A stretch of DNA of 64,000 nucleotides, taken from the IMG/VR virus record IMGVR_UViG_3300047564_004641, positions 51,334-115,333 of that record; one strand, 5' to 3'. The position numbers and the translations under genes are program-made. The DNA comes from a virus. The notes under the pieces were generated by a model. The model had not been told where the DNA came from and did no database searches. It was given only the letters and a program-made list of their open reading frames with translations. Of this stretch, positions 5,435-63,352 are shown piece after piece; the first letter of the stretch is position 1, and each line of letters opens with the position of its first letter.

Positions 5435-5463
5435 ATTATACATAAAAAAAGAGAGGGAGTCAA
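5435..5463 (-). promoter_or_regulatory. sigma70-type promoter embedded in a terminator
   Basis: Minus strand TTGACT (5458-5463), 17-bp spacer, TATAAT (5435-5440). The -35 box falls in the loop of the terminator hairpin at 5450-5473 and the U-tract forms most of the spacer. It would start the transcript for the acidic protein, thyX and the genes after them. Confidence 0.75.
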
Positions 5464-5473
5464 GTCCCTCTCT
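5444..5473 (-). terminator. Rho-independent terminator
   Basis: Perfect 9-bp stem (AGAGAGGGA / TCCCTCTCT) with a 6-nt loop followed on the minus strand by a run of seven T. It ends the two-gene riboswitch transcript. Confidence 0.85.
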
Positions 5474-5479
5474 GATTTA

Positions 5480-5581
5480 TTAAGCAACTTGTGGTTGCTT
5501 AGCCATATTCAATTGTGCGTTATGAAGGAGTTGTTCCTTCTTTGCTTTTTTCTTAAGGTAACGAACGAAGTAAGTGTTCAT
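5480..5581 (-). CDS. 33-aa basic peptide downstream of the riboswitch gene
   Basis: ATG at 5579-5581 preceded by AAAGGAGGGACACAA, one of the best ribosome sites in the window, and overlapping the previous stop as ATGA. The product starts MNTYFVRYLKKKAKKEQ and is lysine-rich and helical. It is the last gene before the terminator at 5444-5473. Not recognised; small peptides of this kind often follow the DUF4278-type gene in marine cyanophages. Confidence 0.6.
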   Translation of the reverse strand: MNTYFVRYLKKKAKKEQLLHNAQLNMAKQPQVA

Positions 5582-5715: not shown

Positions 5716-5747
5716 TAGGTTTTCTCCTTAGTTTTTTAGGTTAAAGA

Positions 5748-5834
5748 GCGTTCCTTCAGTCGGCGTTTGCGTCGGTTTCCCGATGAACGTTCCGTTCCGC
5801 GTCGGCTTACTTCCGTCCCATAGGGATGAACGTA
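5748..5834 (-). promoter_or_regulatory. Glutamine riboswitch (Downstream-peptide/glnA class)
   Basis: On the minus strand the conserved blocks occur in the right order: CGTTCATC (5825-5832), GACGGAAGTA (5808-5817), GCCGACTGAAGGAACGC ending at 5748. These are the shared core of the glnA and Downstream-peptide RNA motifs, both glutamine aptamers. The end block pairs with the first CGTTC to close the junction. A second CGTTCATC copy lies at 5782-5789. The element sits between a sigma70 promoter and a 45-aa gene, matching the Downstream-peptide arrangement. Confidence 0.85.
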
Positions 5835-20677: not shown

Positions 20678-20841
20678 TTTTCGTTAAAGGGTAAGTAAAA
20701 GTCCAGGGGGTTCTGGATGTTACAATATTCCCCACACCACCCTCCAGTGTGGGTATGAGAGACGTGATTTACCCTCCCATAGGTCTCGGTTAACGGGAGC
20801 ACAAAGATTAAGAACCTGTTACATTTCTTAACCCGTTGATG

Positions 20842-20875
20842 TATTTATCATAACAGTTCGTGAAGAACCTGTCAA
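20842..20875 (-). promoter_or_regulatory. Composite sigma70/late promoter of psbA
   Basis: Minus strand TTGACA (20870-20875), 17-bp spacer, TATGAT (20847-20852) overlapping GATAAATA (20842-20849), forming TATGATAAATA. The same design is seen at psbD and the porin gene. Suggests transcription both early and late. Confidence 0.78.
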
Positions 20876-30458: not shown

Positions 30459-31544
30459 TCAGAAGTTAGGAAGTGGTTCCCAATTAGCAAGTCTTTCCTT
30501 TTTTTCAATCTGGTATGAAATCCAATCATAAGTCTTGGCAATACCTTCCTCAAGAGACATTCCATAATCCCATTGAAGTTTTTCACGAATCAGATCATTA
30601 TTTGAATTGCGACCACGAACACCAAGAGGACCATCAATGTGCTTTTTGGTGATTGTCTTACCAGCAACTTTAGCGGCAATATCTGCTAGTTGATTAATCG
30701 TAACCATTTCCTCAGAACCAATGTTAATAGGTCCCAAGAAGTCAGACTCCATTAGACGACGTGTTGCTTCCAGACACTCATCAATATACAAGAATGAACG
30801 AGTTTGTTCTCCATCGCCCCAAATCTCAACTTCACCGCCATCTTCTGCATATGCCACTTTACGACACATTGCAGCAGGAGACTTCTCTTTACCACCTTCC
30901 CAAGTGCTCTCAGGACCATAGATGTTATGGAAACGTGCAATACGGCAAGGAATTTCGTGATTGCGATTAAATGCCAAGTACAGTCGCTCAGAGAATAGTT
31001 TTTCCCAACCATATTCAGAATCAGGTCCAGCAGGATAAGCATCCGATTCTTTTAGTCCAGGATTGTTTACATCCATTTGAGCGTACTCTGGATACATACA
31101 TGCACTGCTACTGTAGAAAATCTTAGTCTTATTAACTTCCTTTCGAGTATTAAGATTCAGTTGAGCTTTTAGAATATTGAGGTTGATAGTAGCAGAATTA
31201 TACATTACCTCAGAATCATTTTCTCCACTGAAAATATATCCAGCTCCACCCATATCAGCAGCATACTGATAGATCTCATCAAAAGAATCCACATATTTTT
31301 CCGGAACCAAATTGTGGAAATTACCAGACTCACCTTTATATTCAATAATTCTGGTAACAAAATCAAAATCAGTCAGATCTCCAACAATAAATTCGTTTGC
31401 TTGTGTTTTAGAATACTCAGGATACTTAATATCAACACCACGAACCCAGTATCCTTCCGAACGAAGTCTTTTAACCATATGACTTCCAATAAATCCACCA
31501 GCACCGCAAACAAGAGCAGTTTTTTTATATTGACCCATTTTCAT
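30459..31544 (-). CDS. GDP-mannose 3,5-epimerase-like SDR enzyme
   Basis: 361 aa. NAD site GAGGFIGSHMVKRL, ADMGGAGYIF, catalytic Y-x3-K region (DSEYGWEKLFSERL), GPESTWEGGKEKSPAAMCRK and GVRGRNSNND follow the pattern of GDP-mannose 3,5-epimerase. That enzyme converts GDP-D-mannose to GDP-L-galactose/gulose. ATG after GAGGTTTTATTTTTT; preceded by a promoter at 31565-31593. Confidence 0.85.
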   Translation of the reverse strand: MKMGQYKKTALVCGAGGFIGSHMVKRLRSEGYWVRGVDIKYPEYSKTQANEFIVGDLTDFDFVTRIIEYKGESGNFHNLVPEKYVDSFDEIYQYAADMGGAGYIFSGENDSEVMYNSATINLNILKAQLNLNTRKEVNKTKIFYSSSACMYPEYAQMDVNNPGLKESDAYPAGPDSEYGWEKLFSERLYLAFNRNHEIPCRIARFHNIYGPESTWEGGKEKSPAAMCRKVAYAEDGGEVEIWGDGEQTRSFLYIDECLEATRRLMESDFLGPINIGSEEMVTINQLADIAAKVAGKTITKKHIDGPLGVRGRNSNNDLIREKLQWDYGMSLEEGIAKTYDWISYQIEKKERLANWEPLPNF

Positions 31545-31564
31545 AAAAAATAAAACCTCTATGT

Positions 31565-31593
31565 ATAGTAATATGTAAAAGCAAAAATGTCAA
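31565..31593 (-). promoter_or_regulatory. sigma70-type promoter inside the glycan cluster
   Basis: Minus strand TTGACA (31588-31593), 17-bp spacer, TACTAT (31565-31570), 21 bp ahead of the epimerase start. Confidence 0.6.
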
Positions 31594-31601
31594 GAAAACA
31601 T

Positions 31602-32564
31602 TTAAATTATATTTATTTTTTCCTCAATGATGTCCATAACGTATTGTGTATCATTACAAAATCTTTCAAATTCACTGCAAAGAAAATAATCACATTCAAC
31701 ATCCAGATTATGTGCAAGAGAATCAGTGGGATTATTATTAAATGAAATTATATGTTTATTCTTATTCATAAAGTTATCCTTTGTGGCACAAAAACAAAAA
31801 GGACCAGATTGCTTTCCGATTATAAGATCACAAAAATTACTCAAATAAGAAATTTCATTCAAATCACAAATACCATTTGTTCTATCATTCCAAGGGATGT
31901 TAAGGCGAATAGGAATATCATATTTGACGGTAATGTCGTCAGTAAACAATATATTTTTAATTTCACTATCAAATTTCTTAGTACAAATAAAATCATACTC
32001 AGGATACTTTTCGGCAAAATACAAAATAATATCTTTCATATCACCAGGAATTGACTGTCCTGACATTGGAAATCCATTACAAAATAATATTTTCTTGGTG
32101 TTTCCTCTTTCTTCCAAAAACTTTTTATGATTTTCTAAATTAAAACATTCAAAGTTAATTTCAGGAACATAATTAGACTTTTCCTTTAACTTCAAAGAAG
32201 TCCCAAAAGTATCATTAATTTTCTGAAAAATAAACTCCCATTCCAGACAAAGAAGATCCAAACTTATTCCAATACCATCAACTTGAAAATATGGAGGTTC
32301 AAAAGAACAAGCTGGAGAATAAGCTCCACTCCAAGTATTAATATTGAGAGTATTCTCTTCTTCTACAAATTTATGTACGTTGTGTTCTAACTTATATTGA
32401 CCCAAACAAGGAATATTCAAATCCAATAAAACCTTTGGATGATTTTCGTGATAATATCCAAAATTGAATCCAGTTAATTCTGTTGTTATTTGTCTGACAA
32501 ATTCTTTACTAGAAAATAAATCACCGCAGTGAAATCCATTAAAAAAGTTTATAGTTTTGTTCAT
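31602..32564 (-). CDS. Unknown protein of the glycan cluster, possibly a glycosyltransferase
   Basis: 320 aa, not confidently recognised. Starts MNKTINFFNGFHCGDLF; the C-terminal half has a KKILFCNGFPMSGQSIPGDM segment and NFCDLIIGKQSGPFCF, reminiscent of the nucleotide-sugar half of GT-B enzymes. AT-rich and asparagine/lysine-rich like its neighbours. Confidence 0.6.
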   Translation of the reverse strand: MNKTINFFNGFHCGDLFSSKEFVRQITTELTGFNFGYYHENHPKVLLDLNIPCLGQYKLEHNVHKFVEEENTLNINTWSGAYSPACSFEPPYFQVDGIGISLDLLCLEWEFIFQKINDTFGTSLKLKEKSNYVPEINFECFNLENHKKFLEERGNTKKILFCNGFPMSGQSIPGDMKDIILYFAEKYPEYDFICTKKFDSEIKNILFTDDITVKYDIPIRLNIPWNDRTNGICDLNEISYLSNFCDLIIGKQSGPFCFCATKDNFMNKNKHIISFNNNPTDSLAHNLDVECDYFLCSEFERFCNDTQYVMDIIEEKINII

Positions 32565-32589
32565 GATTAATTTAGTTCAGATTTATATA

Positions 32590-33756
32590 TTATACATCCA
32601 TTATTGAAATTAATTTATCAATTCTTTCTTTGTTTACGAACTGACTATTACCAACATACACACCGTTTTGGTGAAGAGTAAGGACATTGGGAGTTTCTTT
32701 TTTGGTACAAAGTTTATAATTTTTAAATGCAGGATGTAGAAGAATATTTCCACTAATGATAGGGCGATATTCTATGCCACTCATTTTTAATTTTTCTTTC
32801 ACCAAGGAAATAGAAGAACTTTCTTTGGTGATAATAGGAAAACAAAAACTACTATTTCCCCTTTGGTATTCTGGGATAAAATAGGACTCGGATTTAAAAA
32901 TTTTTTCCCACCAATACTTAAAATTTTCTTTGCGAATCTGGATGTTTTTATCCAACTTTTTCAACTGAGACAATCCAAGAACAGCACAAACCTCATGATT
33001 TCTAAGATTAAACCCTTCTGTCATAAACAAAAAGGTTGGATCAATATCTGGATTTTCTTCGGAATACTTTTTAAACATATGAGGAGATGCTTCCCTTGCC
33101 ATACCATGACTACGCTTCATTCTCATCAACTCATAAAGTTCGGTATTATTCGTACAAACAACACCACCTTCGATTGTTGTAATATGATGTCCGAAATAAA
33201 AACTAAAAGTCGATCCTACAGAATTTATTCCACGTTTATTTCCATCAGGCCCTCGTACACCATGTGATTCGCATATATCTTCCATAACCAATACGTTTGG
33301 AAAAATTTCACGAACCTTTTCCACATTAGAAGAAAGTCCAATCAAATGTGTGATGAAGACTGCTTTAATATCCGGATGTTCGGATGCAATATACTTTAAT
33401 TCATCAATATCAAAAGAAAAATTTCTAAGATTAATATCACAAAAAATAGGTTGAAGATTTGCTTGAATTACAGGAGCAATATTAGTCATCCAAGTACAAG
33501 ATGGAACAAGAACTTTATCCCCATCCTTTAATCCATAATATTCCTTTACGGCAGAAACAAGCAAAGTATTTGCGGTGCTGCCGCTAGAAACATATAAAGA
33601 ATGTTTAACACCTAACCACTCAGACCACTTATTTTCAAATTCACGAACTTTTGGTCCATTAGTAAGTTTGTCACTAGTGAGAAGAAACAATGCCATCTTA
33701 AAACGATCAGAAAACGTAATCGTGTTTTCCATCAGTGGCCAAGTTGATTTAGACAT
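32590..33756 (-). CDS. ColD-like PLP-dependent 3-dehydratase
   Basis: 388 aa of the DegT/DnrJ/EryC1/StrS fold (SSGSTANTLLVSA, VPSCTWMTNIAPVI, MEDICESHGV). The PLP-lysine of the aminotransferases is replaced by His: FSFYFGHHITTIEGGVV. This is the signature of GDP-4-keto-6-deoxy-D-mannose 3-dehydratase, ColD, which removes the 3-OH in colitose synthesis. It is next to gmd, which makes ColD's substrate. Expected product: GDP-4-keto-3,6-dideoxymannose. Confidence 0.85.
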   Translation of the reverse strand: MSKSTWPLMENTITFSDRFKMALFLLTSDKLTNGPKVREFENKWSEWLGVKHSLYVSSGSTANTLLVSAVKEYYGLKDGDKVLVPSCTWMTNIAPVIQANLQPIFCDINLRNFSFDIDELKYIASEHPDIKAVFITHLIGLSSNVEKVREIFPNVLVMEDICESHGVRGPDGNKRGINSVGSTFSFYFGHHITTIEGGVVCTNNTELYELMRMKRSHGMAREASPHMFKKYSEENPDIDPTFLFMTEGFNLRNHEVCAVLGLSQLKKLDKNIQIRKENFKYWWEKIFKSESYFIPEYQRGNSSFCFPIITKESSSISLVKEKLKMSGIEYRPIISGNILLHPAFKNYKLCTKKETPNVLTLHQNGVYVGNSQFVNKERIDKLISIMDV

Positions 33757-34675
33757 AATTCTGATTTAAATGATTAACAATTTTTACAATACCTCCTCTT
33801 AAGGAAGTTTTTGGTTTCCACCCTAGAGAGTTCAATTTACTAACATCCAAAACTCTTCTTGGTGCTCCGTTTGGTTTTGATGTATCCCATACTATTTTAC
33901 CACTATATTCAATAATATTGCAAATCTCATCTACTAACTCCACAATACTAGTTTCAATACCAGTTCCAATATTAATAAACGAATCTGTTTTTTGAGTCAT
34001 TAAAAATATTGCAGCATCAGCGAGATCATCAGAATACAAAAACTCTCTTTTTGGAGATCCGTCACCAAAACATTCAACTTGAGGAACGTTATCTTTTTTT
34101 GCTTTCCAAATTCTATAGACCAAACTTGACATTACGTGTGCGTTTGGAGAATCGACTTTATTTTCTATTCCATATATGTTGCAAGGATTCACAGAAATAA
34201 AGTCAGATCCATATTGTTTTTGATATGCCTCACAAAGTTTAATTCCAGATACTTTAGCAATTGAATAAAACTCGTGAGTTTTTTGAAAGTTACCCATCAT
34301 TAGATTTTCTTCCTTTATGGGCATAGGACTTTCTTTAGGATAAACGCAGGAAGAAGCAAAAAACATTAACTTCTTAACATCATACTTATGAGAAGATGAA
34401 ATTACATTATTTTGAATGTTTAGATTATCCAACAAATAATTCACCGGATTGTTAATATTATCCAGTATTCCACCGCACTTTGCTGCAGTTAAAAAAACAT
34501 ACTCAGGTCTTACAGATTCAATAAAATCATCAGTTGCTTGTTGATTTGTAAAATCTACAAGATGACGGGTGCCTTTCATAATATTTGTGTAACCTTTACT
34601 TTCAAGATTTCGAACAATTGCAGAACCAACCATTCCGTTGGCACCAGCAACTAAGATTCTAGAATCACTTTTCAT
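33749..34675 (-). CDS. fcl: GDP-L-fucose synthase-like epimerase/reductase (Fcl or ColC)
   Basis: 308 aa from [14 protein letters not shown], overlapping the end of gmd by 11 bp. Motifs: [25 protein letters not shown], the catalytic Y-x3-K in [39 protein letters not shown], and [16 protein letters not shown]. These belong to GDP-fucose synthase. With ColD beside it, the enzyme may instead act as ColC, finishing GDP-L-colitose. Sequence alone cannot decide. Confidence 0.85.
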
Positions 34676-35669
34676 TGAGACACATATCCTTAACAAGTTC
34701 TTTGAAAGAAATTCTTGGTTTCCAACCCAACTTTTCTTTAGCTTTGGAAGCATCGCCTAGCAAAGTATCAACCTCAGCAGGTCTAAAATATTTTTCATCA
34801 ACAATAACTCTTACTAGTCCAGAATTTTTATCAACGCCAATTTCTGTCCCAACATCAGTAAATTGCCATTCAATATTCATATCAAAATAAGGTGCCGCTT
34901 CTTCAACAAACTCACGAACAGAATATTGTTCTCCAGTTGCAATCACATAATCCTCAGGTTCATCTTGCTGGAGCATTAACCACATTGCTTCTACAAAGTC
35001 CTTAGCGTGTCCCCAGTCACGTTTTGCGTTCAGGTTGCCAAGTTTAAGAACGGTTTGCCTACCCTCAGACATTGCCTTGAGACCTCGGGTAATTTTACGT
35101 GTTACAAATGTCTCTCCTCTTCTTGGAGATTCATGGTTGAAGAGAATTCCAGAGCAGGCATATATTCCATATGCTTCTCGATAATTTTTGGTAGTCCAAT
35201 ATGCATAAAGTTTGGCACAACCATAAGGTGAACGAGGATAAAATGGAGTAGTCTCTTTCTGAGGAATCTCTTGAACTTTACCAAACATTTCTGAAGTAGA
35301 TGCTTGATAGATTCTTGTTTTCTTTTCCATTCCTAGAAGACGAACTGCTTCAAGAATGCGGAGAGTTCCAAGACCATCAACCATACCAGTATATTCAGGA
35401 GTTTCAAAAGAAACTTTTACATGACTCTGAGCGCCAAGATTATAAATCTCATCTGGTTGAACATCCTGAATCACTCTAATAATATTGGTAGAATCATTTA
35501 GATCACCGTAGTGTAATGTAATTTTATTAAAAATATGATCAATTCTATCCGTGTTAATAGATGATGAACGTCTAATAATACCATGAACTTGGTATCCATT
35601 TGATAAAAGAAATTCCGCAAGATATGAACCATCTTGACCCGTAATTCCTGTAATAAGTGCAACTTTCAT
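34665..35669 (-). CDS. gmd: GDP-mannose 4,6-dehydratase
   Basis: 334 aa. [31 protein letters not shown], the catalytic Y-x3-K at [12 protein letters not shown], and [19 protein letters not shown] are diagnostic. Makes GDP-4-keto-6-deoxy-D-mannose, the branch point to GDP-fucose (Fcl) or GDP-colitose (ColD, ColC). Confidence 0.95.
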
Positions 35670-35678
35670 AAACTTAAC

Positions 35679-36773
35679 CTATGAGATAGTTTCTTCGCTT
35701 AAAAATTCCAACACGTCATCAAGTTTATCACATCTCATATCGTAGAAAAATTGTTTTCTATTTCTTATCTTTTGCATTTTTTCAAAGAAATGCACTTTTT
35801 GACATATAAAATCACTGTTGGTAACAACAATCTGATTAGTATCGCAATAATATAATGCCAAATCCTGAGGACCTGTGCCACTACTAATAAAGTTATTAGA
35901 CTTATTTGCTACTGTCATCAGAAGTCTGACATCAAGAAAATTAGTCATTGTCACATAATGAATGTACTCACTTTCAACATGAGGAAATTCAACCAGATCA
36001 TCAATGACAACTAAATTTATCTTGTTATCAATATGATACTTGACAATTTTACTATAAAGTTCAAATCCAACAAATCCAAAGTCAGCAGAACTTTCACTTT
36101 CAACTAAAAGATCTTCAATATTCGTTGAAGAATGTCTTCTAGTTTTCCAAGAATTTTTTACAAAAAAGCAATTGTAATTTTCAATATTAAGTTCTTCGCC
36201 CTTTATAAAATCAGAATCCCATAAGTCTAAATCCCAATTTGCCGTTCCCGTTCTGTTCCATTCTGTGTCTGGAGTATACCAAACACCATCTTCACCTTCA
36301 GCATACTTATATCCAGGACCAATAGGCCATCCCAAACTCCAATGCAGTTCCTTTCCTATTGGATACAAAACATTTTTAAATACATACCCATCAAACATAG
36401 AAACATAGGCATCTTCATCAAAATTACGAATAGTATGCCAGAAAGCAATTCCTCTATCAGATATGTTTTTAAAATTATTTAAAAGTAATTCTGTTTCTTT
36501 ATTGTCTTTATATGCCTTCGTAGTATCAATAAAACCATCGAGAGTAACTAAAATATCTACGTGTTTTTCATAAAATATTTCATGACCCGGAAAACAAAAT
36601 CCGATTTTTGGTCCCGTAGATTTAAAATAATCAATAAACATTTCATTGAACATCAATGCAAGAAAACCATATTCAGTCCAAATGTAGTTTACTAATGAAT
36701 ATTCTTCAGTATTAATCGAATTAAGAATCGGTTTTATCTGATCAATAGAACTAATTTTTATATACTTAGTCAT
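35679..36773 (-). CDS. Unknown protein of the glycan cluster
   Basis: 364 aa, no recognised family. Contains tryptophan-rich stretches (HWSLGWPIGPGYKYAEGED, TANWDLDLWDSDF) and a C-terminal half with IVVTNSDFICQKVHFFEKM. The ending ISSGTGPQDLALYYC resembles the SNSSF/GSSSN motifs of nearby glycosyltransferases. Overlaps the UDP-glucose-dehydrogenase-like gene by 4 bp. Confidence 0.6.
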   Translation of the reverse strand: MTKYIKISSIDQIKPILNSINTEEYSLVNYIWTEYGFLALMFNEMFIDYFKSTGPKIGFCFPGHEIFYEKHVDILVTLDGFIDTTKAYKDNKETELLLNNFKNISDRGIAFWHTIRNFDEDAYVSMFDGYVFKNVLYPIGKELHWSLGWPIGPGYKYAEGEDGVWYTPDTEWNRTGTANWDLDLWDSDFIKGEELNIENYNCFFVKNSWKTRRHSSTNIEDLLVESESSADFGFVGFELYSKIVKYHIDNKINLVVIDDLVEFPHVESEYIHYVTMTNFLDVRLLMTVANKSNNFISSGTGPQDLALYYCDTNQIVVTNSDFICQKVHFFEKMQKIRNRKQFFYDMRCDKLDDVLEFLSEETIS

Positions 36774-37942
36774 AAATTTATAATAAAAATTGATTCGGTA
36801 ACGTATTTTTTATCATCAACAAATTTAACTTTTTCCCCATACGTATCAAGTAAGTAATCACAGACTTGAGGAGTAACTCTACTATCATTAAGAATGTAAA
36901 CGGTATGTCCTCGATCTAGTAAATCAATACATAAACGATATTGCTGACTTTCGGTAAGAATATCAGTTCCTTTCTTATAAGTGATATATTCAAAATAGAA
37001 AGGTTTTCTATCAGAATTCATTTTTTCATAATAATCACAAATAAATCCTGCGTGTTGATTATTAATTTCATCAGTTACTGATCCTAAATTATACTCCAGT
37101 CCAACCTTTTTAGCAAATGCAGCAAAGGATCTATTATCCCTTGGAAGACAAGGACCACCATAACCAAATCCATATCCAAGATACTTTCTGCCAATTCTAC
37201 TATCAGTTCCTACAGCACTCAGAACAGCAGAAACTTCATCCCCACAACCAGAATGATGAAGAACATCACCAAGCATATTTGCGTAACTAATTTTAGTCGT
37301 CAGGAAACAGTTAATTGCAATCTTAGTTATTTCTGCTGCGGTTGTTGACATCGTACATACGATTGCACGAGTAGTCTGGATTTTATCGTATAACTTTTTA
37401 ATTTCAGATACAATTCTGTCATTATCTTCAAAAGGATTTGTCCCCAAAAGAACCATATCAGCGGTACGAAGATCGTTAATAATAGATCCTTGTGCGATAA
37501 ATTCTGGATTGTAGAAGACACTTACACAGGAAGGAAGTTGCTTTTTAAAGTTTTCACAGTCACCAGGATTAGTAGTACATCCAACAACAAAATATTTTTT
37601 CTTTGGATTTACTTCGATTTCTTCTTTAATATCTTCTACTACACTCCAAATAGCAGAAACATCATAAGAACCATCCTCAAGTGAAGGAGTTGCGACAAGT
37701 GTGTAAATTAAATCACACTCACGAATTACTTCTTTATTATCTGTAGTCGCTCTAAAGTTTTTAGCAACACGAAGAAGGTTTTCTACTTCTGGTTCATTTG
37801 TAATAATCTTGCGGTCATTTAGACCATTAACATAATCTTCCCTAATATCAGAAACTAAAACATCATATCCTGCTGCTTCACATAGAAGAGCAAAACAAAT
37901 TCCAAGTCTCCCAGCTCCAATTACTCCAATCTTCATACTCAT
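36770..37942 (-). CDS. Nucleotide-sugar dehydrogenase (UDP-glucose 6-dehydrogenase family)
   Basis: 390 aa. N-terminal NAD site GVIGAGRLGICFALLCEAAG, the linker TTAAEITKIAINCFL (with Lys/Asn typical of the family), and the catalytic Cys in GFGYGGPCLPRDNR. It oxidises a UDP-sugar (glucose or similar) to the uronic acid. The central catalytic lysine context differs a little from host Ugd, so the substrate could be another UDP- or GDP-sugar. Confidence 0.85.
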   Translation of the reverse strand: MSMKIGVIGAGRLGICFALLCEAAGYDVLVSDIREDYVNGLNDRKIITNEPEVENLLRVAKNFRATTDNKEVIRECDLIYTLVATPSLEDGSYDVSAIWSVVEDIKEEIEVNPKKKYFVVGCTTNPGDCENFKKQLPSCVSVFYNPEFIAQGSIINDLRTADMVLLGTNPFEDNDRIVSEIKKLYDKIQTTRAIVCTMSTTAAEITKIAINCFLTTKISYANMLGDVLHHSGCGDEVSAVLSAVGTDSRIGRKYLGYGFGYGGPCLPRDNRSFAAFAKKVGLEYNLGSVTDEINNQHAGFICDYYEKMNSDRKPFYFEYITYKKGTDILTESQQYRLCIDLLDRGHTVYILNDSRVTPQVCDYLLDTYGEKVKFVDDKKYVTESIFIINL

Positions 37943-38721
37943 TCTCCTTTAAGTTTCGCTGTAATTAATAAATGCCACCCCAATTTTTTTTCTAAAATTT
38001 CAAACATTTCATCAGGCATAACTTCAAACCAAGGTTGTTTTATATATTTTCCTTCCTTGTATGGTTCAATTTGATAAGGAAAAATATGATCTCTTTCTAT
38101 AGAAATTACATCAAAATCTTCTGAAAGTAAATCATAAATTTCTTCTTCAGTATATGTATAAGCAATAGGACATCCATATTGTGCTTCTGGTTGATCGAGT
38201 CCAATACTAATCATATAATTCTTCCAGGACTCGGATGCATACATCATCAACTTAAATACACCATCCTTACTCATATACTTACTAACTTCTTTGATTACTT
38301 TTTCAGGATGTGGAGTATGGTGGATTACTCCCCAAGAATAAACCAAATGATACTTTTCTTCCGGAAGAAAGTCAGAAAGATTTTCTGCATTTCCTTGATA
38401 GAACTCACCACGTTGATTGTAAACTTCAAATCTTCTTTGTGCCAATGCAAGACTTTCTTCGGAAAGTTCTACTCCAGTGTAATCTGCACCATACCTAGCA
38501 AAATTAATTCCTGCGGTAGCCAAACCACATCCAATTTCCAAAACCTTCTTACCATTCCATTCATTAAACTTGGAAAAAGATTTAATATGAGGTTCAACAA
38601 AAAATTTTTTATTTTCCACCTCATCAAAATATTCTTTAGTTCCAACTTCTTTTTTAGAATGCCTAACATTACAAGGTCTATTGTCCCAGAAGGACTTAAC
38701 TTCATTAATTGTAGGTTTCAT
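37939..38721 (-). CDS. SAM-dependent methyltransferase
   Basis: 260 aa of class I fold: VLEIGCGLATAGINFARYG (motif I), GVELSEESLALAQRRF, and YSWGVIHHTPHPEKVI. Probably methylates a sugar or small molecule of the surface glycan. Starts MKPTINEVKSFWDNRPCN, the usual beginning of such standalone enzymes. Confidence 0.85.
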   Translation of the reverse strand: MKPTINEVKSFWDNRPCNVRHSKKEVGTKEYFDEVENKKFFVEPHIKSFSKFNEWNGKKVLEIGCGLATAGINFARYGADYTGVELSEESLALAQRRFEVYNQRGEFYQGNAENLSDFLPEEKYHLVYSWGVIHHTPHPEKVIKEVSKYMSKDGVFKLMMYASESWKNYMISIGLDQPEAQYGCPIAYTYTEEEIYDLLSEDFDVISIERDHIFPYQIEPYKEGKYIKQPWFEVMPDEMFEILEKKLGWHLLITAKLKGE

Positions 38722-39641
38722 ATAATTTCAGTATAATCGTAGTTTGCTTTTAATGAATTAGGCACAAAAGGTCCATTTGTAAAATTATCTCTAACTATCT
38801 TTTGATTGCTATTTAAAAGAGATGCTATCCAAGAAAATGAACTATTAGACATTATGAATAAATCAGAATTTGACATATGATAGAGATCACTTATGGGATG
38901 ATCGTCAATATGAAGTTGAATATTAAAATCGTGAGTTTTAAATTCTAAAAATTCTTCAAAATTTGTCGTAAATCCTTGAGAATGAATGTGAAGAGTTGTT
39001 TTTTGATTTTCAGTATTTTTCTTTAAAAAATCAATGAGATTTTTATATCTAAAAAATTCACGTTCCCTAACATAATATTCTCTCAACGGAGAAGCAATCT
39101 CTGAAGGAATATCATTTGGATTTGATGTTCTAAGATGCAAACAAATATTTACACCATCATCAAAATACTTTTCTCCATCAAAAGATAGTTTTTCTCTAAT
39201 TCGATCAATTCTATCTTTAGTAAATATGTCGTCAAGTTTTTGGTGACATATATTTGATATTTGCCTATGACAATTAGAAAGATTGATTAATATTTTCCTA
39301 TCACTATTTTTGTGATTCTCGATCAAAGAAAATAATTCATAATTAATATCTGTAATATTATAAACTTCGTCCCAACTATTCTTTAAATTTGGAAAATTAA
39401 AAAAGGAATCAATCAAATTCATATATTCATTTTCAGAATATCCACTGTAAGAATGATGAGCAAAATTTGCAGAACCAGGATAAGTAAAATCTACCCCGAT
39501 GAGGTCTGTAAAAAACCTCAGGAGTAGATGATATTGCATCATGGAACCTATTCCTTCTGTTCCAAATCCGTCAATCAATGGAATAGTTTTTTTCCAACTA
39601 TCATCGGAAATTTTATTACTTAAAGTAAGACAAACACTCAT
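38718..39641 (-). CDS. Putative fucosyltransferase-fold glycosyltransferase
   Basis: 307 aa. NICLHLRTSNPND resembles the H-x-R-x-D/N donor motif of GT11/GT23 enzymes, and SDLFIMSNSSFSWIASLL matches their C-terminal SNSSFSW motif. Very AT-rich. Weak but consistent evidence for a nucleotide-sugar transferase. Confidence 0.65.
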   Translation of the reverse strand: MSVCLTLSNKISDDSWKKTIPLIDGFGTEGIGSMMQYHLLLRFFTDLIGVDFTYPGSANFAHHSYSGYSENEYMNLIDSFFNFPNLKNSWDEVYNITDINYELFSLIENHKNSDRKILINLSNCHRQISNICHQKLDDIFTKDRIDRIREKLSFDGEKYFDDGVNICLHLRTSNPNDIPSEIASPLREYYVREREFFRYKNLIDFLKKNTENQKTTLHIHSQGFTTNFEEFLEFKTHDFNIQLHIDDHPISDLYHMSNSDLFIMSNSSFSWIASLLNSNQKIVRDNFTNGPFVPNSLKANYDYTEII

Positions 39642-40378
39642 AGAGTAAAAGTAGGAATAGGATTCATTTTATGACTGTTTATAGCATTGAATTTTTTAAG
39701 AACTTCTACAGCATCACCTGTACCAAGTTCCATTGCTTCCTCTAAAGCAGAATAAGAAGCACCGAGTTGATCTTCATCAGTTCTTCCATCATCCCAGAGA
39801 CCATCAGTAGGAGAGGCATCAATAATGCGTTGATCTACACCAAAATGCCTACCAAGTTCCCAAACCTCAGTCTTATAGAGATCTGCGATAGGAGCAATAT
39901 CAACTCCACCGTCACCATATTTAGTATAAAATCCTACACCATAATCCTCAACTTTGTTTCCTGTACCAACAACAATACCACCAACTGAAGTGGCAACTTG
40001 ATACAATGTAACCATACGAATACGAGAACGTGTATTGGCAAGAGCATGAGTATCAGTACCGAATTCTCTCATCGTGAACTTAAAGGTCTCAAACACTTTA
40101 GTGAGATCATACTTTTGAACGATGACATTACTAAAGTTTGCTTGCAACCATTCAAGATGGGTATCAGAGAGTGATTCCTGTTCTTCCTTTTGAAGGATAG
40201 GCATTCCAAGAGCATAAACTGGAAGACCTGTTTTAGCAGCAAGAGTGGATGAAACGGCAGAATCAATCCCACCAGAAACACCAATTACAAATGCCTTAAT
40301 ATTAAATTTTTCGGCATATTCTTTTAACCAAGAAACAATGCGAGTTTCAAGATCAGAGTAATTTGTAATTCGATTCAT
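39638..40378 (-). CDS. nadE: NH3-dependent NAD+ synthetase
   Basis: 246 aa, typical for the ammonia-dependent enzyme. PP-loop VSGGIDSAVSST binds ATP; VGTGNKVEDYGVGFYTKYGDGGVD (deamido-NAD site) and LWDDGRTDEDQLG are conserved. It makes NAD+ from nicotinate adenine dinucleotide. Unusual inside a glycan cluster; the NAD-dependent sugar enzymes around it and the phage-encoded dehydrogenases would benefit from more NAD. Confidence 0.93.
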   Translation of the reverse strand: MNRITNYSDLETRIVSWLKEYAEKFNIKAFVIGVSGGIDSAVSSTLAAKTGLPVYALGMPILQKEEQESLSDTHLEWLQANFSNVIVQKYDLTKVFETFKFTMREFGTDTHALANTRSRIRMVTLYQVATSVGGIVVGTGNKVEDYGVGFYTKYGDGGVDIAPIADLYKTEVWELGRHFGVDQRIIDASPTDGLWDDGRTDEDQLGASYSALEEAMELGTGDAVEVLKKFNAINSHKMNPIPTFTL

Positions 40379-40423
40379 TTTTTTACTTAATACTTAATTG
40401 CAATTATAGTATGAAAAAATAAG

Positions 40424-40762
40424 TTATGCAACTCTACCGTAGTTATCTTCAATTCTTACAATATCATTTTCATCACAAACACCACGTTGAACTTCGATAA
40501 AAGTTAATCCTTCCGGACCAGCAGTTGCTCTATGGATGTTTTTTGGTGGAATATGAAACCTATCGCCAACAATACAATTTCTAACTTCAAAACCATCGTT
40601 AATTATACCACTACCTTGAACCACAATCCAATCTTCCCAACGATTATTATGGTACTGAAGAGAAAATGATTGATTTGGATTTACATATATTCGTTTTACC
40701 TTATAGGTCTCTTCATCACATAAGTTTTCAAAAATCCCCCAAGGTCTTTCTTCTACGTACAT
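40424..40762 (-). CDS. Cupin of the mannose-6-phosphate isomerase type II family
   Basis: 112 aa. RPWGIFENL, VYVNPNQSFSLQYHNNR-like core (IYVNPNQSFSLQYH), GDRFHIPPKNIHRA and FIEVQRG are the metal-binding cupin motifs of phosphomannose isomerase/GDP-mannose pyrophosphorylase C-termini. Supplies mannose-6-phosphate for GDP-mannose, the precursor of gmd products. Confidence 0.85.
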   Translation of the reverse strand: MYVEERPWGIFENLCDEETYKVKRIYVNPNQSFSLQYHNNRWEDWIVVQGSGIINDGFEVRNCIVGDRFHIPPKNIHRATAGPEGLTFIEVQRGVCDENDIVRIEDNYGRVA

Positions 40763-40766
40763 AGTT

Positions 40767-41492
40767 TTAATTATTTGGAATGTAAATTGGATTTGTATTT
40801 AGAAATGGAATGTGCTTCACATCATCATTATGAATTCCCTGATACATTAGATATTTCTCAGCTTTAATATCAAGAACATCAATCAGGTAAGGAACCGATG
40901 TATGTACTGTATGAATTTCTTTTGCATTTTCAAGTACTTTGCAATAGTCAAATAAACAATAATTAATATCGTTCTCTACAACTGGAAGATCAAATTCTGG
41001 AAATTTAAGAATGTTGTTTTTCTTGAGATCAGTGTTTGCATAACGATTAACGTACACATATTCAGAATCATCTTTCAGACCCAATACATCATAATAAAGA
41101 TAATTTTCTCTTTCTATGTTTCGTGTGAATTTAAATCCTTCAGACCATTTAGTCCAATCAAGAAAGAGTTGAAGATACTTTGCGTGCATACACATACACG
41201 TTTCAGACTCAGAAATTCCAAAATCATTTTTCCAAAAATGGATCATATCCATTCCAAGATAAACAAATTGAGGAGATTGAATAATTCCCATTTGTCCATA
41301 ATATTCCTTTCCAGGAAAATTATCATTTTGAGAGCAAAAATCAATATCAGTAATATAATCTTTAATCCAAAGAATACTTTCTCTTAACGGCCAAATAACT
41401 TTGTATCCCATTTCAAGATACTTTCTTGCAACATATTGCAGAAAAAATACATCACCAATTCCTGCTGGTTGATTAATTAAACAAATTTTCAT
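40767..41492 (-). CDS. GT-B (heptosyltransferase-like) glycosyltransferase
   Basis: 241 aa. The start (QPAGIGDVFFLQYVARKYLE) is the ADP-heptose-transferase-like N-terminal motif (GDxxx.Q). C-terminal part has ENAKEIHTVHTSVPYLIDVL, like the acceptor/nucleotide end of short GT-B proteins. Function in LPS-like sugar addition is inferred. Confidence 0.7.
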   Translation of the reverse strand: MKICLINQPAGIGDVFFLQYVARKYLEMGYKVIWPLRESILWIKDYITDIDFCSQNDNFPGKEYYGQMGIIQSPQFVYLGMDMIHFWKNDFGISESETCMCMHAKYLQLFLDWTKWSEGFKFTRNIERENYLYYDVLGLKDDSEYVYVNRYANTDLKKNNILKFPEFDLPVVENDINYCLFDYCKVLENAKEIHTVHTSVPYLIDVLDIKAEKYLMYQGIHNDDVKHIPFLNTNPIYIPNN

Positions 41493-41833
41493 TCAACACC
41501 TTTATAAAGTTTTACAGAATCTTCCCTCAAAGTTCTTCCCGTGGAAATTGCATTATCTACCATTAGATTCACAGCTTGAACCAAACGTGGTCTTTTAACC
41601 TTAAAGCAAATGTCAATTTTCTTTTTTAGTTCTGCTATTTCTGCATCTGTTTTTGCTTCTTGAATTGCATCTTCCAACATCCACATACGAGTATGAAGAA
41701 TTGAAAGTTTTTCAATTACTTCCCCAAGATTGTCAGTTTCAATGTATTCAACATCAGGAAGTTCTCTGCGAGAAAGAACTTCATTAATTGTTTCTTCAAT
41801 ACACTTATCAATCAGTTCTCCGAAATTACTCAT
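41489..41833 (-). CDS. DUF4254-like conserved protein
   Basis: 114 aa from MSNFGELIDKCI. HTRMWMLEDAIQEAKTDAEI and KKKIDICFKVKRPRLVQAVN resemble the DUF4254 family, often found in surface-sugar clusters. Function unknown. An upstream in-frame start at 41929 overlaps the previous gene and is unlikely. Confidence 0.55.
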   Translation of the reverse strand: MSNFGELIDKCIEETINEVLSRRELPDVEYIETDNLGEVIEKLSILHTRMWMLEDAIQEAKTDAEIAELKKKIDICFKVKRPRLVQAVNLMVDNAISTGRTLREDSVKLYKGVE

Positions 41834-41837
41834 AGTT

Positions 41838-42425
41838 TCACTCCACGTATGCAAATAGTTGATAATCATCGACAACTCGATGAGAAGTATATTCTGGAGC
41901 AATTCCAAAATATACGGGGACATATTCAATTTTATAATCTTTATTAATAGAAAAAATTAAATTTTCCAATTCTTCCTTCTTATCAGAAAAGTAAACTGGA
42001 ATATCATCGATCACAATTGTGTGATTTTTTATCGGATGATCTTTAATGAGTTGAAGTTCTTCAAATGTAGGAACTCCACCACCCTCATCATGAGCGTCTA
42101 ACCAAAAACATGCTTTATCATTCACTGCTTCCAGCATTTTAGGCATACATTCTAATGAAGTTCCAAGATAAAGATTTACATTATCATTTTTTGCAAACCT
42201 ATCCATACAATGCTGATATCTATCCTGCATGAACTCACAACTTAGAACATACTCAAATCCATGATCCAATGCGTACTGAACTCCATGTCCGAGATGTGTT
42301 CCAGTTTCAACAAAATATTTGCATCCAAGTTTAACTCCAAAATCCCTAAACAGAAAAGCGCAAGTTGGTATATTTTTAGACTCTTTTGCATATACCTTCT
42401 TGAAGTATTTGTTTTTATCAAACAT
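41838..42425 (-). CDS. Methyltransferase-like protein
   Basis: 195 aa. GCKYFVETGTHLGHGVQYAL (motif-I-like), SCEFMQDRY, and ACFWLDAHDEGGG resemble small class I SAM methyltransferases of sugar clusters. The D-x-H of LDAHDEGG may bind metal. No confident substrate. Confidence 0.6.
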   Translation of the reverse strand: MFDKNKYFKKVYAKESKNIPTCAFLFRDFGVKLGCKYFVETGTHLGHGVQYALDHGFEYVLSCEFMQDRYQHCMDRFAKNDNVNLYLGTSLECMPKMLEAVNDKACFWLDAHDEGGGVPTFEELQLIKDHPIKNHTIVIDDIPVYFSDKKEELENLIFSINKDYKIEYVPVYFGIAPEYTSHRVVDDYQLFAYVE

Positions 42426-43218
42426 AATAATTCTCCCAAATAAAATCTTCTAAAATTTCCATCTTTTTAGCACGCTCCAAATTGTCCTGAATTGCATCCA
42501 TTTTACTATAATAGATTTCTTCAGAAACATCAAACTCTTCACTCAATACAATAATACCATCAGTATTAAAATGACTACCAATATCTGGTGCTCCAAGATA
42601 AACAGGAATTGTTCCTGTTGCGAAACAATCAAGAAGTTTTTCTGTAAAGTATGTTTCATACTGACCGTTCTCAATTGCTACCGAGAACATATAGTCACAT
42701 AATCCTTCTTCTTTATCAGCAATTTCTTTAAATCCGCGACCATAAAGGTCAACTTGTTCTCCAATCCTCTCTACCCATTCCAACCTTTTAATATGCCCCT
42801 CACACATTCTTTTGTTTGAAGAGATCATTGAAATCATTTTTGATTTCTCATAAATTTTAGGTTCTTTAATCCAAAATCCCTGAGCGGGAACCCACTTAAA
42901 CTTATCACCAAGATTTAAAAGTCTCTGATCGTGAGTGAAAATAGTCTCATAAGTATTCTCAACTAACTCACGATTTTCAATAATACTTTCTACAAGTCCA
43001 GGTTTAATGAATTTAGATTCAAGCAACCAAAGATATTTTGGTCCCTTCATTTTATCATTAATCCCATTATTAATAGTATCATCGATGTAAAAAGTTCCAT
43101 CACCACCATCTTGAACCCACTCAATATATTTGGATTCTTTTCCATGAACGGAATATCCCTTGTTACCATTAGTAAGATGGGTAAAAGTATTACCAACTAA
43201 GTTAAACTTTTTTTTCAT
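42418..43218 (-). CDS. Glycosyltransferase family 10 (alpha-1,3-fucosyltransferase-like)
   Basis: 266 aa from MKKKFNLVG. The C-terminal motif FSVAIENGQYETYFTEKLLD followed by CFATGTIPVYLGAPDI is the classic GT10 signature. Would add fucose or a relative from GDP-fucose to the glycan. Third potential fucosyltransferase type in this cluster. Confidence 0.88.
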   Translation of the reverse strand: MKKKFNLVGNTFTHLTNGNKGYSVHGKESKYIEWVQDGGDGTFYIDDTINNGINDKMKGPKYLWLLESKFIKPGLVESIIENRELVENTYETIFTHDQRLLNLGDKFKWVPAQGFWIKEPKIYEKSKMISMISSNKRMCEGHIKRLEWVERIGEQVDLYGRGFKEIADKEEGLCDYMFSVAIENGQYETYFTEKLLDCFATGTIPVYLGAPDIGSHFNTDGIIVLSEEFDVSEEIYYSKMDAIQDNLERAKKMEILEDFIWENYYV

Positions 43219-43220
43219 AA

Positions 43221-44126
43221 TCAATATCCATCAGTAAAATAAAAAAGATCATATGAAACATCTGGGTTCATAGACAATGCAGAAAGAAACATATTACTAC
43301 TACTACCAATAATGAGATCGGTTTTACTGGATAAAATTACATCTAGAAAGGCATTCTGATATTCAATTGCATACTCATCATCAGTCATAGATTCCTGATT
43401 AGAAGGTCTTCCACCTTTCCAATCAATATCAGTAGAAAGTCTTGGTCTTTCAGCACAAATGCACCTATTACCAAAAACACTTTTAAACTCATCAACAAAC
43501 GGTTGAATCATTGTGGTTAAGAGAACAGCATCATAATCATCTATTTTACTCTTAACTGAGTCGATAGCATGTTCTACAACGTTGGTTATTCCTTGATAAT
43601 GCCCCGAATGCCTTAGCATAATAGACATTACTTTTTTTCCCTCTATTAGTTTTTCTTCTTCTTTTGCTTTTTGATTAAAATGATCCAGAAGTTTAAACTT
43701 ATTCCACTGTCGATTTAAAGCTACTCTTGTTTTGCTAATATTTTCCAGGTCAACATACTGCTCTTTTTTACTACCTCTACCATCATATTTTAGAGTATCT
43801 TCTGGATAAAATTTTAGTTCAGATTTTATATCTGCAGGATAAGCTTCAAAATAAGTAAACTCTTTTGGATATTCTTTTACCATATACTCATTTGGTTCAA
43901 AAAAATCAAAAAGAACGTTTTTTTCCAAAACCTCATCAAAATTATTTACTTCAGAAGACTTCAACCACCTATAGTTTGAATAGCTGCTACCGGGGTAATG
44001 AGTTTTATTTCTTGTGTGAAGTGAAAGATTTATTTCTCCATCTGATCTTTCTGCGGTTTCCATCCATGCAAGTTGCAGAAGAAATCCACTAAAAACTCCC
44101 GCACAATTTCCAGCAATTACATTCAT
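43221..44126 (-). CDS. Putative glycosyltransferase (O-fucosyltransferase/GT23-like)
   Basis: 301 aa. SIMLRHSGHYQG resembles the H/R-x-x-D/G donor site and LIIGSSSNMFLSALSM matches the GSSSN-type end of GT23/GT68 folds. Begins MNVIAGNCAGVFSGFLLQLAW, a Rossmann-like strand. First gene of the glycan transcript, 27 bp after a promoter -10 box. Confidence 0.65.
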   Translation of the reverse strand: MNVIAGNCAGVFSGFLLQLAWMETAERSDGEINLSLHTRNKTHYPGSSYSNYRWLKSSEVNNFDEVLEKNVLFDFFEPNEYMVKEYPKEFTYFEAYPADIKSELKFYPEDTLKYDGRGSKKEQYVDLENISKTRVALNRQWNKFKLLDHFNQKAKEEEKLIEGKKVMSIMLRHSGHYQGITNVVEHAIDSVKSKIDDYDAVLLTTMIQPFVDEFKSVFGNRCICAERPRLSTDIDWKGGRPSNQESMTDDEYAIEYQNAFLDVILSSKTDLIIGSSSNMFLSALSMNPDVSYDLFYFTDGY

Positions 44127-44152: not shown

Positions 44153-44181
44153 ATGATACAAAAAAAGGAGGTTGTTGTCAA
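44153..44181 (-). promoter_or_regulatory. sigma70-type promoter of the glycan cluster, embedded in a terminator
   Basis: Minus strand TTGACA (44176-44181), 17-bp spacer, TATCAT (44153-44158). The -35 box is part of the terminator hairpin at 44167-44186 and the T-run lies in the spacer. It is the start of the 17-kb glycan operon. Confidence 0.72.
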
Positions 44182-44186
44182 CCTCC
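44159..44186 (-). terminator. Rho-independent terminator
   Basis: GGAGGTTG (44167-44174) pairs with CAACCTCC (44179-44186), 4-nt loop, then a run of T on the minus strand. Confidence 0.85.
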
Positions 44187-44191
44187 AATAA

Positions 44192-44323
44192 TTAATTCAG
44201 GCTCGCCACCAATTCTTTAACTGGAAATTGGAAACCAGGCGGAGAAAGAATTCCCCATCCGCACCACCAATTCTTGAGAGAAATTGGAAACTCAGAAAGA
44301 CATTTTTTTAGAAAGTCTCTCAA
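44192..44323 (-). CDS. 43-aa Trp/Pro-rich protein with TTG start, tentative
   Basis: TTG start at 44321-44323 inside the end of the preceding gene. The frame reads RDFLKKCLSEFPISLKNWW then CGWGILSPPGFQFPVKELVA, which looks like real protein, but there is no ATG and the ribosome site is weak. It may be a remnant domain. Confidence 0.35.
   Translation of the reverse strand: MRDFLKKCLSEFPISLKNWWCGWGILSPPGFQFPVKELVASLN
44206..44290 (-). repeat. Two direct repeats that are also small hairpins
   Basis: CCACCAATTCTT...GAAATTGGAAA occurs at 44206-44234 and 44264-44290. Each copy folds as CCAATT/AATTGG. They lie in the tentative 43-aa frame, just before a terminator. Confidence 0.6.
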
Positions 44324-44489
44324 TAAGATTATTAACCTTTGCTTCTAAAGCAGAAAGTCTATCTTCATCAATATTATCTGAACTAGAATCGCTGAACTTT
44401 TCTTCAAGATTTTGAAGACGAGTCTCAACACTTTTATCGTATTCGGACATATAAGGTTTATCCGAAGATGTTGATTTTTTAACTGTCAT
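44292..44489 (-). CDS. Small coiled-coil protein
   Basis: 65 aa: polar start (MTVKKSTSSDKPYMSEYD) and a C-terminal heptad region (LSALEAKVNNLIERLSKKM). No known family. Confidence 0.55.
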   Translation of the reverse strand: MTVKKSTSSDKPYMSEYDKSVETRLQNLEEKFSDSSSDNIDEDRLSALEAKVNNLIERLSKKMSF

Positions 44490-44555
44490 TTTTATTAGTA
44501 AAAAACTCTCAATTTATTTAGTTTTAAGGGGTCGTGTTGACTCCACCACTTAGTT

Positions 44556-44783
44556 TTATGAAACTAAGAAAAGTTGGGATAACTTTGATATTTCGGAGAT
44601 ACCAAAGAAAGCGCATAAGAATAGCACATCCCAAAGTTTAAGTTTAATTGCAAAAGGTACTGTGAGTAATCCCCCAACAACTTTTAACATTAAACCATAT
44701 TTAAAATCTCCCCATAACATAGTTTGATAACCAATAATGAGAAGAAGATTACCAAGATATCGTAAGATACTTGTTTTTGACAT
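44556..44783 (-). CDS. Small multi-pass membrane protein
   Basis: 75 aa with two or three hydrophobic helices (LGNLLLIIGYQTMLWGDF, KLWDVLFLCAFFGIS). Function unknown. Confidence 0.55.
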   Translation of the reverse strand: MSKTSILRYLGNLLLIIGYQTMLWGDFKYGLMLKVVGGLLTVPFAIKLKLWDVLFLCAFFGISEISKLSQLFLVS

Positions 44784-44830
44784 TAGGGGTTTGCTCCCGA
44801 CCAGTGCTGTTAAAGTCCATCCGTGACTAT

Positions 44831-45298: not shown

Positions 45299-45327
45299 AT
45301 TATAGAGTGTTGATGTTTGAAAGTCAA
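45299..45327 (-). promoter_or_regulatory. sigma70-type promoter
   Basis: Minus strand TTGACT (45322-45327), 17-bp spacer, perfect TATAAT (45299-45304). Confidence 0.8.
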
Positions 45328-51138: not shown

Positions 51139-51167
51139 ATTATAAGTTTTTATTTAGAGTTTGTCAA
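51139..51167 (-). promoter_or_regulatory. Perfect-consensus sigma70 promoter
   Basis: Minus strand TTGACA (51162-51167), 17-bp spacer, TATAAT (51139-51144); both boxes match the consensus exactly. It faces the lysozyme gene 130 bp away, with the hairpin at 51114-51130 in between. Confidence 0.85.
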
Positions 51168-51337
51168 TCTTCTGGTTCTAAGGAAACAATTTCAAGTTCA
51201 TCTCCTTCTGGTTCAATCCACTCATAGAACTCAGCAAGAATTGCACGGGCATCTTCCTTTTCAATACTCATATCCGCAGCACGGTCAAGAGACCACCCTC
51301 GCACATGAGCAACAATATCTTCAGTCGTTGCGTTCAT
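51164..51337 (-). CDS. Small acidic hypothetical protein
   Basis: 57 aa from MNATTEDIVAHVRGW, overlapping the end of the GIY-YIG gene by 17 bp. Ends EGDELEIVSLEPED. A longer in-frame reading up to 51553 runs inside the nuclease gene and is a shadow. Confidence 0.55.
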   Translation of the reverse strand: MNATTEDIVAHVRGWSLDRAADMSIEKEDARAILAEFYEWIEPEGDELEIVSLEPED

Positions 51338-63345: not shown

Positions 63346-63352
63346 GAGGGTT
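63320..63352 (-). terminator. Terminator hairpin overlapping the tRNA-Ala promoter
   Basis: AACCCTCT (63324-63331)/AGAGGGTT (63345-63352) plus an inner GAC/GTC, followed by a short T-run on the minus strand. Ends the mazG transcript. Confidence 0.7.

Follow-up and report, generated by a model that had tools for sequence, protein, structure and literature searches.

The window analyzed here, a stretch of 64 kb, covers positions 51334–115333 of a 115-kb T4-like cyanophage contig whose megablast matches are mostly Synechococcus phages. At 44153–44186 two gene groups are separated by ~35 bp that appear, judging from the sequence, to hold both the stop signal of one group and the start signal of the next. 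All features of this element lie on the minus strand, which the earlier note on this DNA had left unstated, and they are given here with their neighbors from upstream to downstream:

45327–45299, minus strand: strong promoter TTGACT-N17-TATAAT, the nearest upstream, ahead of several small ORFs
44292–44489, minus strand: upstream small ORF, 65 aa, phrog_35121, function unknown
44295–44195, minus strand: wcaG RNA (RF01761; Rfam cmscan 95 bits, gathering cutoff 42, E 8e-17)
44186–44167, minus strand: predicted terminator hairpin GGAGGTTG(ACAA)CAACCTCC, from folding and from its retention in relatives
44181–44176, minus strand: -35 hexamer TTGACA, within the hairpin; TT invariant in 72 wcaG-linked composites
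44166–44160, minus strand: T7 tract filling the promoter spacer, from sequence; six T (near-)invariant in the 72 composites
44158–44153, minus strand: -10 hexamer TATCAT, exactly 17 bp from the -35; TATCAT, TATGAT or TATAAT in relatives
43221–44126, minus strand: first gene of the glycan cluster, 301 aa, start codon ~27 nt after the -10
30459–43224, minus strand: remaining glycan cluster, from Pfam

The arrangement that had been claimed for this site, with TTGACA in a hairpin, a T-tract filling the spacer and TATCAT at exactly 17 bp, is present in full. Folded as RNA, the hairpin reaches -13.0 kcal/mol (z -5.3), which none of 200 shuffles equalled, and the call of a sigma-70-type promoter at 44181 is a match to the consensus. 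In 10 relatives compared, the composite precedes this same downstream gene eight times, once with a diverged -35, and is missing twice; in L014 the hairpin is retained with a different stem and with TTGCAT replacing TTGACA.

On the upstream side the wcaG RNA begins at the stop codon of the small ORF, and 8 unpaired bases lie between its end (44195) and the terminator hairpin (44186). The promoter at 45327–45299 is likely the start of the upstream transcript that would end in wcaG and the hairpin. Two more conserved intergenic motifs, at ~44530–44560 and 44770–44810, flank a small ORF at 44556–44783 (minus strand); they read ACTGGTCGGGAGCAAA(A)CCCC before the ORF and AACTAAGTGGTGGAGTCAA...GACCCC after it, and many cyanophage loci show this pair, too, upstream of wcaG. 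A wider family of wcaG-like intergenic modules had been suspected; the two motifs that we examined occur only once to a few times per genome.

Downstream, the product of the first gene has no Pfam or PHROG match. Pfam domains at 30459–43224 comprise glycosyltransferase family 10, NAD synthase, methyltransferase, UDP-glucose/GDP-mannose dehydrogenase, GDP-mannose 4,6-dehydratase, epimerases and DegT aminotransferase, and the name "glycan cluster" given in the earlier note is well earned by the dehydratase, epimerases, nucleotide-sugar dehydrogenase, aminotransferase and glycosyltransferase among them.

Sister sites in the window

The same design had been reported at two further places in the window, and both exist, the second with a weak T-tract:

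5473–5435, minus strand: second composite, AGAGAGGGA(CTTGAC)TCCCTCTCT, T-tract and TATAAT, spacer 17, -15 kcal/mol
63352–63317, minus strand: third composite, AACCCTCTTGACT(TTT)AGTCGAGAGGGTT and TATAAT, spacer 17, -19.8 kcal/mol, ahead of tRNA-Ala

The site at 63352–63317 is predicted to be a weak terminator because the T-tract before its -10 is short, though the stem is strong; this composite (63345) is conserved in L584, L595, L601 and L659. The composite at 5463 adjoins the thymidylate synthase gene in most relatives, and in cyanophage contigs it is conserved on the upstream side of that gene. A uniform scan for a terminator stem and T-tract with a -35 (at least 5 of 6 positions) in the hairpin and a -10 (at least 5 of 6) at 17 bp finds exactly these three composites in the 64-kb window (44181, 5463 and 63345); applied to both strands of 60 dinucleotide-shuffled versions of the full window, it finds none. 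The design is present in only 3 of the ~20 strong minus-strand promoters of the window.

Other regulatory signals lie on the same strand. A glutamine riboswitch aptamer (RF01739, 43 bits) at 5745–5834 is upstream of a small ORF at ~5480–5580, which is followed by the composite at 5473–5435. A PhotoRC-II RNA (RF01717, 80 bits) lies at 20717–20811, with a strong promoter, TTGACA-N17-TATGAT, just upstream at 20875. A perfect promoter, TTGACA-N17-TATAAT, at 51167–51139 has a terminator-like hairpin with a CCCTG(TTATGAG)CAGGG-type stem and T6 directly after it (51130–51114), so that a transcript from there would end almost immediately.

Distribution of the composite behind wcaG

Viral contigs were scanned with strict wcaG core patterns and combined with known loci, which after removal of near-identical downstream sequences gave at least 103 non-redundant wcaG RNAs with enough downstream sequence; the loci come from one collection and are not fully independent. 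Among the matches listed, an intrinsic terminator directly follows 86 of 103 of these RNAs, its hairpin usually starting 11–16 nt past the conserved GTGGCGN of wcaG, and a -10-like hexamer is found at 83 of 103, in 77 of those 83 at 17 bp. A strict full composite follows 73 of 103 among the matches listed, as against 0 of 1030 dinucleotide shuffles, 0 of 101 positions upstream of wcaG and 0 of 94 positions 800 nt downstream. The gene families tested downstream of these composites are mostly epimerases, cytidylyl-/nucleotidyltransferases, glycosyltransferases and the like.

Isolates with the arrangement include DSL-LC03 (whose hairpin is the same as that of the window), S-SRM01 and S-SM2, and S-CREM1 has it ahead of a tRNA, the T-tract being short. 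The arrangement is absent in the isolates Syn9, S-PM2, S-CAM1 and S-CAM3; Syn9 has a wcaG RNA without an adjoining composite and a separate TTGACA-N17-TATAAT further on.

Relation to known composite elements

Promoter early stem-loops (PeSLs), composite promoter-terminators of T4-like phages, have reportedly been described by Arbiol in 2010 and Comeau in 2014; RB49 and Phi1 are said to be the phages where they were first found, and KVP40 is presumably among the phages of the Comeau study. We scanned the geometry of 681 terminators pooled from 11 public T4-like genomes and this contig, and found a spacing of 17 bp in 30 and of 18 bp in 11, versus 1–6 at spacings of 13–16 and 19–24 bp. KVP40 has ~10 clear composites, whose hairpins hold TTG and whose -10 follows at 17–18 bp; in RB49 and Phi1 there are only one or two sites of the exact composite geometry.

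Like a PeSL, the window element combines an apparent intrinsic terminator stem-loop and a sigma-70-type promoter in one short intergenic element that separates genes of variable regions, shares the KVP40 geometry (-35 in the hairpin, 17–18 bp spacer), and belongs to a type that marks junctions of probable gene exchange. Unlike PeSLs, composites of the window type have few copies per genome (three in the window) with stems unlike one another, occur in a different host and phage family (Kyanoviridae), and have a fixed coupling to the wcaG RNA. By its predicted anatomy the element is a composite of the already known PeSL kind; this and the wcaG RNA on its upstream side are two points that the earlier note did not have. 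PeSLs have a low density in cyanophage S-PM2 (PMC4503421), and the present composites would extend PeSL-type elements to the Kyanoviridae.

Selection on both signals

In 72 wcaG-linked composites with 17-bp spacing, among the matches listed, there is little or no variation in the two T of the -35, in six T of the tract or in TA...T of the -10, and stem positions vary in paired fashion. The -35 falls into three classes, TTGCAT (the commonest), TTGACA and TTTACA; in the TTGCAT class 217 of 225 stem cells are paired, versus 130–159 with the partner slid. The strength of promoters of this commonest class is uncertain, because TTGCAT matches the -35 consensus at only 3 of 6 positions. The classes TTGACA and TTTACA resemble the early -35 of T4-type phages, GTTTAC/GTTGAC (PMC1524935).

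The thymidylate synthase site forms a family independent of the wcaG one, in which 35 distinct arm pairs frame a TTGAC that hardly varies, and a hairpin covers the -35 in 43 of its 46 distinct promoters with a T-run spacer, among the matches listed. Across viral contigs, among the matches listed, such a hairpin is found in 70 of 118 T-run promoters versus 1 of 112 A-run promoters. A chance juxtaposition of the two signals was rejected on the empty shuffles, the empty wcaG controls, the contrast between T-run and A-run promoters and the spacing peak at 17 bp.

Stem covariation together with fixed promoter spacing points to selection on transcription signals. The composite is widespread in cyanophages, in both the wcaG-linked and the thymidylate synthase families, and the predicted termination and promoter functions are both under selection in the same ~35 bp. 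The note's central claim, that a terminator carries the -35 box of the next operon, is strongly supported by the wcaG set, its covariation and the thymidylate synthase site. It is very improbable that the hairpin is a terminator with an accidental promoter match, or a non-terminating palindrome serving as a protein operator over the promoter. For such a reading speak that either half alone would be ordinary, that the T-tract of the third site is weak and that some wcaG terminators lack a -10; against it, the 17-bp spacing is strict (77 of 83 among the matches listed), TA...T and the T-tract are invariant while the stem varies freely, and the T-tract is strand-specific.

Function of the composite and of wcaG

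Weinberg 2010 (PMC2864571) rates wcaG as probably cis-regulatory for exopolysaccharide or high-light genes and as a possible riboswitch, and later papers repeat the cis-regulatory proposal. The wcaG of the window is the same RNA in the same setting, with exopolysaccharide genes in a cyanophage. Neither the accessible text of Weinberg 2010 nor the later papers mention a terminator or promoter between wcaG and the supposed target genes. Among the matches listed, 73 of 103 wcaG RNAs have both of these ahead of the next gene, and read-through transcripts would still carry wcaG; with a terminator and a fresh promoter so placed, a 5'-UTR riboswitch model would fit only such transcripts. The simplest reading is that most copies of wcaG form the 3' end of the RNA of the upstream unit, where one module borders on the next, which would change how this RNA is understood, most copies being cut off from their supposed targets. 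That wcaG might be an independent small RNA transcribed from a promoter of its own was considered and rejected, a promoter lying within 200 nt upstream in only 1 of 100 cases among the matches listed.

We hold it to be quite probable that the element is a PeSL-type terminator-promoter behind wcaG, at the boundary between a small-gene operon and an exchangeable glycan module. Sequence and comparison establish the anatomy of the element, how it is conserved, its association with both wcaG and glycan genes and the loss of homology at the junction (below); from these we infer actual termination and initiation, their timing and any regulatory effect. A polymerase from the upstream promoter would transcribe the small genes and wcaG and halt at the T-tract; the same DNA as a duplex would offer a -35 in the hairpin and a -10 after the T-tract, 17 bp apart, to the host sigma-70-type RNA polymerase, which would begin the glycan operon ~20 nt ahead of the first gene. 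On this reading most glycan mRNA would carry no wcaG RNA; that RNA would have its effect at the 3' end of the upstream transcript, or else only on polymerases reading through. Most likely the composite isolates the glycan module and gives it an early promoter of its own, and isolation of adjacent operons, as had been proposed, is the most economical function.

The main rival is that wcaG and the terminator together regulate transcription by attenuation or antitermination, either in the manner of a riboswitch or as a processive antiterminator resembling the EAR RNA of Bacillus eps operons. In that case wcaG would decide whether upstream transcription continues into the glycan genes, with the embedded promoter as a second entry. 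EAR and other processive antitermination RNAs are structured RNAs upstream of exopolysaccharide genes and of terminators; wcaG is like them in both respects, antitermination by wcaG being hypothetical. The position of wcaG directly before the terminator in most copies speaks for this rival, as does the published rating of wcaG as cis-regulatory; against it, the terminator is part of the minimum-energy fold in 73 of 76 wcaG loci among the matches listed, wcaG and the arms of the terminator show no pairing covariation, and such control would be circumvented by a promoter placed behind the terminator. A classic antiterminator pairing of wcaG with the terminator arms was rejected, own-versus-swapped duplex energies giving no signal (p ~0.06 for the 5' arm and the opposite sign for the 3' arm). 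The mutually exclusive pairing of aptamer and terminator that defines a terminator-type riboswitch was not found in these comparisons, and indirect mechanisms could still operate. We regard this rival as rather unlikely.

A second rival sees the element as maintained chiefly for recombination, as a joint or mobile regulatory cassette with a secondary effect on transcription, a role that works cited in PMC4503421 propose for PeSLs. Among 62 wcaG-composite loci from the matches listed, 321 pairs are alike on the upstream side only, 37 on the downstream side only and 85 on both, the pairs being non-independent events. In five aligned pairs that share the upstream side, identity is mostly 80–100% through most of wcaG and drops to background level across the composite, and upstream and downstream gene families are freely mixed. 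Homology is thus lost at the junction in loci alike upstream, as the rival would have it, and the composite appears to mark the edge of an exchangeable glycan module, with exchange probably at the element itself; phages may use such modules to alter host surfaces. Exchange at operon boundaries, however, requires no special sequence, the composites within the contig are not near-identical and so offer little homology for recombination, and fixed promoter spacing and stem covariation speak for selection on transcription signals. We consider this rival improbable. The likelihoods of the rivals overlap with that of the terminator-promoter reading, since either of them, control of read-through or recombination, could operate alongside it.

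The earlier note had also suggested that polymerases at the two signals might influence each other. Single-molecule work shows that a terminated RNA polymerase can remain on the DNA and start anew, and it suggests a sense promoter close by as a means of coupling (PMC6978322), so that mutual influence is, by analogy, physically plausible. The composites should be good, compact natural test beds for the idea, suggested in that work, that a just-terminated polymerase may restart at the promoter beneath it. A bolder and rather doubtful proposal is that wcaG and the composite are one switch, wcaG setting read-through while terminated polymerases stay and restart from the promoter beneath; upstream transcription would then feed the glycan operon in two ways.

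Other settings of the wcaG RNA

Some wcaG RNAs lie right before a gene without any terminator, as in L173, L208 and Sf-FS3, so isolation is not the sole setting of wcaG. In L173, L208 and L378 the RNA has neither terminator nor promoter and ends ~15–20 nt before a 2OG-Fe(II) oxygenase gene, possibly a true 5'-leader form. In L382, L379, L154 and L201 wcaG lies ahead of tRNA genes and is accompanied by a hairpin, for example GGGGATTGACCTCCCC, that often has neither T-tract nor -10, and some of these loci have a second wcaG-like stem unit in between. In two public records the wcaG RNA is annotated as coding, as a hypothetical protein in S-SRM01 (L373, 2493–2699) and as the first part of GDP-mannose dehydratase in DSL-LC03 (L374, 2494–3660), and both annotations are probably wrong.
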